Source: Nitrospinaceae bacterium (GTDB taxonomy: Bacteria; Nitrospinota; Nitrospinia; Nitrospinales; VA-1). Taken from it: a DNA stretch of 39,241 nt. The notes beneath the pieces were generated by a model, which saw only the letters and a program-made list of their open reading frames with translations, was not told where the DNA came from and ran no database searches. Below are positions 7,905 through 11,885 of the stretch, piece by piece; within the stretch, counting starts at the first letter, position 1; every line of letters begins with the position of its first letter. The translations under genes and the position numbers were made by a program. Location: NCBI GenBank assembly GCA_020343535.1, contig CP070799.1:2297318-2336558 (forward strand). The letters run 5' to 3'.

Positions 7905-10175
7905 ATGGGCAATCGACAAGACCGGACGGGCTCCTGGGCCAGGATTCGAACTGTTCTACCTCAATCGGTCGCGGGCCTTCAACCCGATTCCCCGGACAAT
8001 CCAGACAATATGGAATGGTTGACGTTCCATTGGTGCCTGACGGTGGGCCAGGATCTCGCTGCGATTTCCAGGATCGAAGGCTTTTCCGGCCAAACCCTCC
8101 GCGTTGCGGTTTCTGGGAAGGAGTGGATGACGCCGCTTAAATCCCTGCGGCAAAAAATTATCGCTGAAATGAGACGTCAGACAGGGGCGGATTCCTTGCA
8201 GCGCATCGTATTCAAACTGGATCCCGATTTTCCGCCGCCTGGCCTCGGGCGGCCCGAACGGGTCGTGTCCGCGAAGCCGCCGGTTCCCGGTTTAAAGCGG
8301 GAGCTTGTATCAATAGACGACGTGGAAGGAAATATAAACATGATCAAAGATCAAGAATTGAAAGAAATCCTGACCCGCTTGTCGGCCAAGATTGCCGGGA
8401 TCGCTCTCATCCTGGCGGGGAGTCTTCTTATTTCCAATTGCACCATCGCCCGGGATGCCGAGTTTTCTCCGCCGTCGACCATTGATCTGTCGTCGTCGTA
8501 TGCCATCCGCGAAATGCGGATACAGGAGAAAGGCCCTGGAGCCGGATCGCGGGACCCGCGCTCTTACTACCACTACCTGATGGCGCTCAATGCCGAACGC
8601 GATTACCAGTTTGAACAAGCCACGGACAATTACCGGCAGGCCGTCGCCTATGATCCGAAGGCGGAGGGCTTGCGTGAGAAGCTCGCCATCCACCTTTTGC
8701 GGGAAGGGGAGATCGAAGAGTTGATCGAGGTGTGCGAAAAGGGCTTGGAGTATTTTCCGAAAAACATGACGTTGAACATGATTCTCGCCGATGTGCTTGC
8801 CGCCCGCGGCGAATACGTGCGCGCCCACCGTCATTACGAAAACGTGACCGAGACCGACCCCGGCGGGTCGCGGGCGTTTCTTCTTCGCGGCACCCTTTAC
8901 GTGGAACAGGGGGAGTACGAAAAGGCGCATAAAATGTTTGAGCAGGTGGTGCTCGTTGAACCGTCCAACCCCCTCGGCCACCATTACCTTGGGCGCGAGG
9001 ATCTGCGCAGCGGGCAACTGAGCGACGCGGAAAAGCAATTCAGGAAAAGCGTTTCCCTCAAGCCGAATTTTGTGGCGGCGAGAGAACACCTGGCCTGGGT
9101 GTTGGAGAAGCTCGGCAAAGTCGACGAGGCGGTCAAGGAATACAATCTGCTGTTGAAGCTCGAACCGGGCAACCGGCGCGTCCGCGATCATCTGGAGGCG
9201 ATCCGGCAATGGGGCGCCCCCTCCCCCCCGGCGGAAAACCAGGGCATTCCCCAGGAACTTCTGGACCAGCCGAGGGCGCACCTCGAGATCGCGTCGATCT
9301 ATTATGAGCAGGCGATGTATCTGAAATCCCTGGAAGAGTTTCAACTGCTCCTCGTGCGCAAGGACAGCCAGGAACCGCATGTGCTGATGGCGCGCATCTA
9401 CGAAATTCTGGGTCGGCTGGACAAGGCCATCGAGGAATTCGAAACGCTGCGTAAAATGAAGCCGGAATCCATCGAGGTCATCACCTACATGGCCCGGCTC
9501 CACAGCCTGAATGGCGACACTGAAACGGCGATCCCCCTGATCCAGGAAGCCATCTCCATCGAACCTGGTAACGACAGCCTGTATCACTCGCTGGCGCTTG
9601 CTCACATGGCGCTCGAAAATTACGAGCCGGCGATTGAGGCGATGCGCCAGGCCATCACCCTGAACGCGAACAAGGATTCCTATTATTTCGAGCTCGGCGC
9701 GCTCCTGGAACGGGCCGGCGAGTTCAATGGCGCGATCGAGAACATGCAGCGCGCCATAGAGCTCAACCCCATGCACTCCAACGCGCATAATTTTCTCGGC
9801 TACATGTACGCGCTCGAGGGGCAGTACCTCGACAAGGCCCTCGACCACCTCAAGAAAGCCCTGGCGATCCAGCCGCGCAACGGTTATTTCCTCGACAGCC
9901 TCGGCTGGATCTACTTCAAAAAGGGGGAGCCGAAAAAAGCCCTGAACGAAATCCAGAAGGCCATGGTCTACACGCCTCCCGATCCTGTTCTGTACGACCA
10001 CCTGGGAGACATCCATTTTTCCCTGCAAAATTATTCCGAGGCCAGTGGAGCGTGGCGGATGAGCCTGTCGCTCACGCGCATGAAAAAGGACGATTTTGAG
10101 GGAGAAATGCCCGACCCGAAAGACCTGCAGGAAAAAATCGACAAGGTCGACAAAATCCTGCAAAAGGGTTTGTGA
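7905..10175 (+). CDS. DUF721 (DciA-like) domain fused in frame to a TPR lipoprotein
   Basis: One open frame of 756 codons holds two unlike parts. Residues about 12-105 match DUF721/DciA: ARIRTVLPQSVAGL, WLTFHWCLTVGQDLA, TLRVAVSGKEWMTPL and QRIVFKLDPDF; DciA family members load replicative helicase or are uncharacterised cytoplasmic proteins. At residue 146 a methionine (8340) has its own ribosome site and begins a signal-like segment ending LLISNC (Cys179), followed by at least twelve tetratricopeptide repeats (YYHYLMALNAERDYQFEQA through NEIQKAMVYTPP). A cytoplasmic domain before a lipoprotein signal is contradictory, so two products from one frame are likely, or a membrane-anchored fusion. 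Downstream LolB-like lipoprotein and ispE suggest that the TPR part belongs to the envelope. Confidence 0.75.
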   Translation: MGNRQDRTGSWARIRTVLPQSVAGLQPDSPDNPDNMEWLTFHWCLTVGQDLAAISRIEGFSGQTLRVAVSGKEWMTPLKSLRQKIIAEMRRQTGADSLQRIVFKLDPDFPPPGLGRPERVVSAKPPVPGLKRELVSIDDVEGNINMIKDQELKEILTRLSAKIAGIALILAGSLLISNCTIARDAEFSPPSTIDLSSSYAIREMRIQEKGPGAGSRDPRSYYHYLMALNAERDYQFEQATDNYRQAVAYDPKAEGLREKLAIHLLREGEIEELIEVCEKGLEYFPKNMTLNMILADVLAARGEYVRAHRHYENVTETDPGGSRAFLLRGTLYVEQGEYEKAHKMFEQVVLVEPSNPLGHHYLGREDLRSGQLSDAEKQFRKSVSLKPNFVAAREHLAWVLEKLGKVDEAVKEYNLLLKLEPGNRRVRDHLEAIRQWGAPSPPAENQGIPQELLDQPRAHLEIASIYYEQAMYLKSLEEFQLLLVRKDSQEPHVLMARIYEILGRLDKAIEEFETLRKMKPESIEVITYMARLHSLNGDTETAIPLIQEAISIEPGNDSLYHSLALAHMALENYEPAIEAMRQAITLNANKDSYYFELGALLERAGEFNGAIENMQRAIELNPMHSNAHNFLGYMYALEGQYLDKALDHLKKALAIQPRNGYFLDSLGWIYFKKGEPKKALNEIQKAMVYTPPDPVLYDHLGDIHFSLQNYSEASGAWRMSLSLTRMKKDDFEGEMPDPKDLQEKIDKVDKILQKGL
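8325..8342 (+). promoter_or_regulatory. Internal ribosome site and ATG for the TPR lipoprotein
   Basis: GGAAGGA lies about 9 nt before ATG 8340-8342, which opens a basic/hydrophobic segment ending in LLISNC. This would start a separate 610-residue TPR lipoprotein (8340-10175) inside the longer DUF721 frame. Confidence 0.55.
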
Positions 10176-10195
10176 CGCCGTTCTTCCGACAGGTG

Positions 10196-10978
10196 ATGCC
10201 CGTGCGAAATACCCACCCCCTCGCCCTGGGGCTTGTGCTGCTCGCGTTTTGTTTAATCGCAGCCTGCCAGACCTTTCCCGGCGGAAAGCCGGAGACCATC
10301 ACCACCGAAATTTTGCGTGACCGGCTCCTTGCGCGGCAAAATGGTGTGAAGGAGCTAAAGTCTTTTGTCAGAACAACCGTGGAGGGTAAGCGCCGGGTGA
10401 CGTTCAACCAGGTGCTCCTGGTCCAGGCCGGCTCGTCGATCCGCATGGATACGCTCAACATGTTCGGGCAGACCCTGGGCGTCTTCATCCATTCGCCCGC
10501 CAGGACCCTTCTGTATGAGCCGGCGCGTAACCGGGCCATCGAGGGGGAAGCGGTCTGGAACGCGATGGAACGGACCGTCGGGATGCGCATTGACTTCAGG
10601 CGGTATGCCGGGGTTTTCTTGGGTGGCATTCCGCATCTGGACGAGCTCACCATCGACCGAGCGCGCCTGAGCGCCGACAAGAAGCGATACGAGATCGAAA
10701 CCACGCACGCCGCAAGCGGAGAACATCTGAACATCGAGGTCGATGCCTACACCCTCCTGCCCCTGATTCTAAGGCGGCAAGATGGCGAGTACGTAGTGAG
10801 GTGGGAAGAATACAAAAAAATCGGCGATCGGGATTTCCCGCACCGCCTCGTCATCCGGTTCCCCGCCCGGCGGGAGACGGTGACGCTGGAATACAGCAAT
10901 CCCTCCATCAACGGCGGGCTGCCCGCCGACGCGTTCGACTCCCCCGTCCCTTCCGGGGCGCATACCCGGGATGGATGA
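10196..10978 (+). CDS. LolB-like/DUF4292 outer-membrane lipoprotein
   Basis: The N-terminus is a lipoprotein signal with a textbook lipobox (LIAAC, Cys24 from ATG 10196). The remainder resembles the LolA/LolB beta-sheet fold: VKELKSFVRTTVEGKRRV, QAGSSIRMDTLNMFGQ, LLYEPARNRAIEG and YTLLPLILRRQDGEYVVRWEEY. LolB accepts lipoproteins from LolA and inserts them in the outer membrane; a position directly before ispE matches the lolB-ispE-prs order of gammaproteobacteria. Similarity is distant, so true LolB function is inference. A GTG at 10172 overlapping the TPR stop would add eight residues, but ATG 10196 gives the better signal peptide. The 3' end overlaps the ispE start by 8 bp. Confidence 0.75.
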   Translation: MPVRNTHPLALGLVLLAFCLIAACQTFPGGKPETITTEILRDRLLARQNGVKELKSFVRTTVEGKRRVTFNQVLLVQAGSSIRMDTLNMFGQTLGVFIHSPARTLLYEPARNRAIEGEAVWNAMERTVGMRIDFRRYAGVFLGGIPHLDELTIDRARLSADKKRYEIETTHAASGEHLNIEVDAYTLLPLILRRQDGEYVVRWEEYKKIGDRDFPHRLVIRFPARRETVTLEYSNPSINGGLPADAFDSPVPSGAHTRDG

Positions 10979-11885
10979 AAAGGTGACGCATCTCAAACTC
11001 AAATCTCCCGCGAAGATCAATCTCGGTCTGAAAGTCTTGCGCAAACGCGAGGACGGTTTTCATGAGCTTGAGACGCTCTTCCAGATGGTCGCCCTATACG
11101 ATGACATTGAACTCGAACTCCGGCCTTCGGGCATCGAGCTTGCCGGCCATGCGCCGGGCATCCCGCTTGATGCGTCGAACCTCGCATGGCGCGCCGCCAA
11201 TCTGCTTCTGCAACAGGTGCCTGCTGGGAGCCGCCAGGGGGTTCGAATCCGGCTGACAAAACGGATTCCCGCCGGGGCGGGTCTCGGGGGAGGCAGCGGC
11301 AACGCGGCGATGGTGCTCCTTGGCCTGAACGTGCTCTGGGACCTTAAGATGCCACGTGAAATATTGCTGTCCCTGGCCGCCGAACTGGGCTCGGATGTGC
11401 CCTTTTTCCTGACGTCGCCCGCCGCCATCGGGCGCGGCCGGGGAGAAATTCTTGAAAGCGTTCAACCCTCTGAAAAATTTTACGTTTTACTGGTTTTTCC
11501 AGGGTTCTCCATTGCCACCGCCTGGGTTTACCAGAACCTAAATTTGAAGTTGACAAAGGGCGAAAATAATATTAGCATTTTGCACAAATTCTTATCGGAA
11601 TCGAGGATAGCGGACCTAGGGACCAGCTTGTTCAATGACTTGGAACCAATTGTTATTGAAAGATATAGCGTAATCCAGGTTATCAAGCAAGCGCTCCTGG
11701 CCCTTGGGGCAAAAGGGGTTCTTCTGTCTGGCAGCGGTTCCACGGTTTTCGGCCTATTTGACAACCCTGAACAAGCGAAAATCGCGTACGCCAAGTATGA
11801 AAGTGGGGATGGAGGGTTGTTTTTAGCGGAAACAGTTACCCGTTTTTCCGAGTTTTTGCCCAGGGAAATGCTGTCTTATCCTTGA
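10971..11885 (+). CDS. ispE: 4-diphosphocytidyl-2-C-methyl-D-erythritol kinase IspE
   Basis: IspE phosphorylates CDP-methylerythritol in the non-mevalonate isoprenoid pathway. The GHMP-kinase signatures are all present: SPAKINLGLKVLRKREDGFH at the N-terminus, the ATP loop PAGAGLGGGSGNAA around residue 100, LGSDVPFFL and the C-terminal LLSGSGSTVFGLF. At 304 residues it has the usual length. ATG 10971 overlaps the end of the LolB-like gene. The last third (from about 11520) is visibly richer in A and T and uses more AT-ending codons than the first part and all neighbours, which may reflect recombination with a foreign allele. Confident identification. Confidence 0.96.
   Translation: MDEKVTHLKLKSPAKINLGLKVLRKREDGFHELETLFQMVALYDDIELELRPSGIELAGHAPGIPLDASNLAWRAANLLLQQVPAGSRQGVRIRLTKRIPAGAGLGGGSGNAAMVLLGLNVLWDLKMPREILLSLAAELGSDVPFFLTSPAAIGRGRGEILESVQPSEKFYVLLVFPGFSIATAWVYQNLNLKLTKGENNISILHKFLSESRIADLGTSLFNDLEPIVIERYSVIQVIKQALLALGAKGVLLSGSGSTVFGLFDNPEQAKIAYAKYESGDGGLFLAETVTRFSEFLPREMLSYP

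Follow-up and report, generated by a model that had tools for sequence, protein, structure and literature searches.

The fused frame and its parts

We analysed a window of 39,241 nucleotides from a Nitrospinaceae bacterium (contig CP070799.1; host genome of 2.53 Mb, single contig), in which one reading frame at 7905-10175, open throughout its 756 codons in the ORF list, joins a domain of the helicase loader DciA to a TPR lipoprotein. The parts of this frame and the genes that adjoin it are the following.

7905..8012, + strand: ATG start at 7905 and N-terminal extension of DciA (ORF list; Shine-Dalgarno absent at 7905)
8013..8213, + strand: DciA/DUF721 KH-like domain, residues 37-103 (Pfam PF05258; AF2 and Foldseek match to 8a3v and 7ykm)
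8214..8339, + strand: linker, mostly disordered by prediction, relaxed yet coding (pooled pN/pS of 0.58 from 8 fused pairs)
8325..8330, + strand: GAAGGA, Shine-Dalgarno of the internal start (sequence and duplex energy)
8340..8342, + strand: internal ATG, codon 146, with the lipobox Cys 33 residues downstream
8343..8393, + strand: DciA C-terminal helix IKDQELKEILTRLSAKI, residues 147-163 (motif score, conservation, literature)
8394..8438, + strand: hydrophobic region of the lipoprotein signal peptide, last residues ISN, then Cys
8439..10172, + strand: lipobox Cys179 and TPR lipoprotein, LbcA/PA4667-like (TPR matches; PDB 8sxe collinear; AF2 superhelix)
10172..10978, + strand: LolB-like/DUF4292 gene, whose GTG start overlaps the TPR stop codon as GTGA (10172-10175)
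10971..11885, + strand: GHMP kinase, ispE-like, a neighbouring gene

Residues 37-103 matched the Pfam DciA family (PF05258) at 33.7 bits in the full ORF and at 36.7 bits when the 145-aa N-terminal part was searched alone (cut-off 24 in each case), and a profile search of the 2.53-Mb genome returned no other PF05258 match. The KH-like part was predicted with a pLDDT of about 94 (AF2), and its best Foldseek matches in the PDB were to DciA of Vibrio cholerae (8a3v) and of D. radiodurans (7ykm, TM 0.78 on target), which supplied the only three rows at E ≤ 0.001. With the N-terminal part as query, phmmer against the PDB found nothing relevant and tblastn against plasmids gave no match. In the portions of the literature available to us, DciA is reported as the helicase loader of most bacteria, and the cases described there are separate cytoplasmic proteins. 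As in DciA of Caulobacter crescentus and V. cholerae, the protein of the window has a KH-like domain, a flexible linker, and a C-terminal helix with spaced leucines.

The lipoprotein signal peptide reported in the preliminary description was recovered in frame, ending in ISN-C179, and all 21 fused proteins in the alignment keep C179. The residue at lipobox position −1 (window 8436-8441) is Asn in all 26 fused proteins of the window's order, the Nitrospinales, which is unusual by E. coli rules; it is Gly in G069, a fused protein from outside the order, and Asn, Ser, Ala, or Gly in split relatives. Beyond the lipobox, a TPR superhelix was predicted (AF2, pLDDT mostly over 90), and 8sxe (PA4667/LbcA) aligned collinearly and nearly end to end (residues 16-523, E 9.2e-10), making this part similar to LbcA/PA4667 in being a lipoprotein with a TPR superhelix of like length; generic TPR proteins nonetheless outscored LbcA, and, unlike in LbcA, the signal peptide here is internal to a longer frame. 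The section of the source available describes LbcA/PA4667 as an activator of the protease CtpA and as an outer-membrane lipoprotein with TPRs (PMC8764530). LolB-like, ispE-like, prs, and L25 genes lie downstream of the TPR lipoprotein of the window. PA4667 has LolB-like and ispE-like neighbours as well. Genes for DnaB and LspA are present. An antisense open frame also runs over the TPR gene (window 8310-10163, minus strand, 617 aa), and is probably a shadow of codon use.

Fused and split loci across the phylum

We surveyed 77 genomes of the phylum Nitrospinota, 68 of which had one PF05258 match each and nine none, and read all 68 loci. The frame was continuous in 27 of them, 26 within the order (26/57) and one outside it (G069). 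By family, fused loci made up 11/42 in f1, 11/11 in f2, 1/1 in f3, and 3/3 in f4 within the order, while G069 belongs to family f8, in which its two sisters are split; two of the 26 (G035 and G053) run off the contig beyond the lipobox. The initial claim that a DUF721 domain and a TPR lipoprotein follow each other without an intervening stop was therefore confirmed in the window and in these relatives, and its suggested refutation, a stop between the two parts in all relatives, fails.

Over the linkers of the 27 fused loci (1,045 codons), we counted no in-frame stops, a zero that is a selection effect, and 62 and 67 stops in the other two forward frames, which show only that the stretch is not stop-poor. 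A frame open by chance was rejected on the basis of the relatives and the stop counts in the other frames. An assembly or sequencing artefact that deleted a stop codon is close to inconceivable: the relatives found by name were, with few exceptions, Nitrospinota MAGs (SZUA-350, which bears the title Nitrospirae, was the closest, at 79% protein identity), and a lone frameshift in G029 (g6) may itself be an error, but the 26 order loci that keep the frame come from separate genomes, including two single-contig ones (G000 and G037), and refute it. One MAG labelled Emcibacteraceae (L117, JAJFIR010000028.1) held a Nitrospinaceae-type TPR contig together with two different DciA matches, and is probably contaminated.

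The 41 split loci comprised 31 in f1 and 10 outside the order, and in 39 of them a TPR frame of at least 200 aa followed dciA; a different gene follows it in G059, G066 has no long TPR frame, and in G061, because of masked bases, the TPR frame can be read only from 505 bases onward. In family f9, outside the order, the codons of dciA and the TPR gene overlap as ATGA in 5/5 loci. Given this overlap and the adjacency in split loci, an adjacent and probably coupled pair looks ancestral, and the two genes were probably translationally coupled before they fused. The frame of the window is best read as a fusion of two neighbours, dciA with its docking helix and an LbcA-like TPR lipoprotein gene.

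A 66-row tree built from the TPR part recovered the order as a single, fully supported clade, within which f2 to f4 were wholly fused and fused and split loci were interleaved in f1. Parsimony on this tree gave a fused state for the root of the order and required 7 changes in total, or 5 without G003, which is partly masked, and G029. Fusion thus looks like the ancestral condition of the order; on the simplest reading, it arose once at the base, was later undone several times (in g2/g3, in g5+g8, in g7, and perhaps in G029), and happened again in G069. The split forms in f1 are broken upstream of the helix, and the DciA tail is lost. The continuous frame is thus real and old, and we think that it is selected.

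Outside the phylum, we searched 200 genomes from that of G077 (presumably Pseudomonadota), of which at least 171 matched PF05258. Among the matches listed, 11 had open frames longer than 300 aa, and none of the 10 that were read (G222 was left out) was a fusion: the frames were long only upstream, DciA ended 55-70 residues past the domain in all 10, and the helix motif scored at p ≤ 0.05 in six. Unlike these DciA proteins, the protein of the window continues from its helix into a signal peptide and 578 more residues. Among the matches listed from a search of open-licence PMC papers, no fused or membrane-bound DciA was found, which is not proof.

The docking helix, the internal start, and DnaB

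Most stand-alone DciA proteins from outside the order terminate in a IKDADLKKTIQRIISK-type helix. Using a matrix made from seven outgroup DciA C-tails, which stand for nine genomes and leave out the fused proteins, we obtained a score of 21.4 (shuffle p 0.002) for the helix of the window, the leucines of which (L152-x3-L156-x2-L159) have the same spacing as L163, L167, and L170 of Caulobacter DciA. According to the available portions of two reports, the L-x3-L-x2-L helix of Caulobacter DciA binds DnaB and is needed in vivo, and changing each of its three leucines reduced DnaB binding and complementation, with L163S also lowering the protein level (PMC9825169, PMC12547741); similarly excerpted, another describes the C-terminal part of V. 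cholerae DciA as a hairpin that docks on the LH-DH module of DnaB (PMC9912922). Judged from its sequence, the segment directly before the signal peptide is the C-terminal helix of DciA.

This helix was found at p ≤ 0.01 in 25 of the 26 fused proteins of the order, every time beginning 31-32 residues before the lipobox Cys, and the lone exception, G038, keeps two of the three leucines by eye. It is also present in G069, at −50, where helix and lipobox lie 18 residues further apart. By comparison, it was detected at p ≤ 0.01 in 0/31 of the split DciA tails of f1, 22 being too short to hold it and the nine scored giving a best p of 0.028 (G003, which is partly masked), and G057, outside the order, is likewise without it. 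Among the TPR n-regions of the 31 split loci in f1, where the rows of G061 and G066 were uninformative, it appeared in two, both from g7 and eroded in appearance, and weakly in G029 (p 0.056). A reading of the motif as a mere signal-peptide n-region is unlikely, as the split lipoproteins of the order are without it except for the eroded g7 and weak G029 cases. Because splits with loss of the docking helix have been tolerated several times, the helix is not indispensable. Pooled over the 8 fused pairs, pN/pS was 0.23 in the helix (144 codons) as against 0.58 in the linker, and 0.32 in the KH domain; two pairs showed no contrast between helix and linker (G012/G032, pN 0.07 and pS 0; G044/G053, 0.20/0.20). 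AF2 drew the helix motif and the hydrophobic region as a single helix (residues 150-177/178), at a low-confidence pLDDT of about 60.

The lipoprotein part was also said to have a ribosome site of its own, and this was upheld: GAAGGA lies 9 bases ahead of ATG 8340, with a duplex energy of −5.7 kcal/mol, as compared with +0.4 at ATG 7905. The putative start at 8340 stands, whereas the placing of the boundary between the two parts at that point does not, because DciA extends by homology to about residue 163, and the internal start, one codon upstream of the helix, consequently sits within DciA. An ATG at −33/−32 whose duplex energy is at least as good as −4.6 occurs in 12 of the 27 fused loci and in 8/12 fused genera. 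The best ATG reached −4 or lower in 13 of the 25 fused loci having an ATG in range, versus 14% of 376 in-frame control ATGs, a comparison that favours the observed side in that the best ATG was picked per locus. In split g7, the best start of the separate TPR gene is an ATG at the same −33 place and of equal energy in 5/5 genomes. The internal site is absent or poor in G017 (no ATG), G038, G043, and G069, while in G012, G032, G035, and seven g14 genomes the ATGs are weak at best (none in G054), several of these having GTG or TTG alternatives.

The signal peptide is N-terminal in the product started at 8340 and not in that started at 7905. The presence of a Shine-Dalgarno sequence at the internal ATG but not at 7905 suggests that the lipoprotein would probably be in excess over DciA in many species, and, since many lineages preserve the internal site well, they can produce the lipoprotein free of DciA. 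In G017, G038, and G069, which lack a good internal site, the full-length chain should be the lone source of lipoprotein. The second refuting case named in the preliminary description, initiation at 8340 alone with the DUF721 part silent, is unlikely: the DciA helix is encoded beyond 8340, it is under purifying selection, and within the order it is kept almost only where the frame is continuous.

We also compared the docking helix of DnaB in 32 proteins (loci L164 and L170-L201); in four further genomes searched, no DnaB was found. Position W+4 was His in 7/7 DnaBs from the split, tail-less g2, g3, g5, and g8, and Thr or Ser in 13/13 from fused genomes and in 7/7 from outgroup genomes with the tail. 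Thr/Ser was found too in split g7 (2/2, which keeps Thr) and in the tail-less outgroup G057 (Thr), and the two genomes without a DciA match had Thr (G055) and Ala (G071). The neighbouring W+3 aligns with VcDnaB Ile294, a position that, in the excerpt available, matches ccDnaB residues needed for DciA binding. A 29-row tree that joined the TPR part to DnaB, minus the docking-helix columns of the latter, did not unite the seven tail-less genomes in one clade (p-AU 0.008), and therefore the T/S-to-H change seems to have occurred twice; the DnaB tree alone placed g2+g3, g5+g8, and g6+g9 in one unresolved clade, with which a single origin of His is compatible. A T/S-to-H change next to the putative DciA docking site thus appears to track the loss of the tail, which, with two events at most, is suggestive and not proof. 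Position W+5 had been considered as a marker of loader type and was left aside, the exact Ser/Gly position not being settled in the part of the source available.

Proposed fate of the fused chain and rival explanations

We consider it somewhat probable that the full-length chain is made and used, such that DciA residues 1-178 serve as an inner-membrane-anchored loader that LspA parts from the lipoprotein, with the internal start adding lipoprotein. The full-length chain would be translated, the N-terminal part of DciA and the docking helix staying in the cytoplasm and the signal peptide spanning the inner membrane. Lgt and LspA would be expected to modify Cys179 and then to cut ahead of it, leaving residues 1-178 as the anchored helicase loader, perhaps to be clipped off later, and allowing the TPR lipoprotein to be sent onward. 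In 8/12 fused genera, the internal ribosome site would supply extra TPR lipoprotein without DciA. The preliminary description had offered two proteins from one frame or a DciA tethered through the TPR part as alternatives; our data support both two products and a tether, which are not exclusive, but the probable tether would be the signal peptide helix rather than the TPR part, because the two should be severed from each other by lipoprotein signal peptidase.

The fbcH polyprotein of Bradyrhizobium comprises cytochromes b and c1 and is cut by signal peptidase. The fused chain would resemble it in carrying two functions that are parted at an internal signal peptide, and would differ from it in that fbcH yields two membrane respiratory subunits, whereas the present frame includes a cytoplasmic replication factor and LspA is the protease expected to act. 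Signal peptidase II would thus be the processing enzyme of this candidate bacterial polyprotein. More tentatively, and with appreciably less confidence than in the anchored loader as such, we suggest that the only DciA of the Nitrospinales could be a membrane-anchored loader derived from an LspA-cut polyprotein, tying helicase loading to the export of an envelope lipoprotein. The host group consists mostly of marine bacteria, in which the conservation of this arrangement hints that a replication factor is synthesised on the membrane or attached to it. If so, DnaB would dock at the membrane, the output of the loader and part of that of the lipoprotein would be coupled, and loading would be linked to envelope biogenesis; the protease that LbcA serves in Pseudomonas degrades cell wall hydrolases. 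The repeated natural splits, in which the docking helix was lost and DnaB changed to match, offer ready-made comparisons for the role of the helix.

The strongest rival is a same-frame overlap that became locked without any membrane role, the lipoprotein start having moved upstream into the DciA tail so that the helix codons are shared; we regard this as rather unlikely. The frame would then stay open by geometry, because a stop after the helix kills the lipoprotein and a stop before it costs the DciA tail, while DciA would act once cut or clipped free and the anchor would be incidental. Such an origin fits the abutting dciA and TPR genes outside the order, with their overlap in f9, the position of the internal ATG immediately ahead of the helix together with the Shine-Dalgarno kept in most fused genera, and the breakage of f1 splits upstream of the helix with the tail gone. 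It is harder to reconcile with G069, G017, and G038, which keep the frame without a good internal site, and the independent fusion in G069, with its longer distance from helix to lipobox, suits the geometry less well. Moreover, a locked overlap still requires full-length translation plus a way to free DciA.

The other rival concerns a DnaC/DnaI-like AAA+ ATPase with a cysteine-rich N-terminal part, which is encoded in the same genome (L167:1267-2307, minus strand; G000:C1:1964209-1965246) and was found at E ≤ 1e-15 in 51/64 order genomes and 0/13 others. In the portion of the source available, dciA is reported lost upon the arrival of dna[CI] (PMC5109545), and DciA may therefore share the loading role or have lost it. 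This order-specific ATPase, gained at about the same node as the fusion, may have relieved DciA of loading; PF05258 scores run from 30 to 54 bits inside the order and from 59 to 74 bits outside it, a difference that would be expected of a DciA partly relieved of that function. Taken further, DciA would be a fading relic, the ATPase having taken over loading, with only the internally started lipoprotein of consequence, and the loss of the tail in split lineages would agree with this. We find so complete a displacement improbable, and more so than the locked overlap. The ATPase scores under every curated NCBIfam cut-off listed, making its loader role putative, and a mere relic is disfavoured by the constraint on the KH domain and helix and by the retention of DciA, with one match each, in 57/64 order genomes, several of them incomplete. 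The DnaB docking helix, in addition, changed along with the loss of the DciA tail in 7/7 DnaBs.
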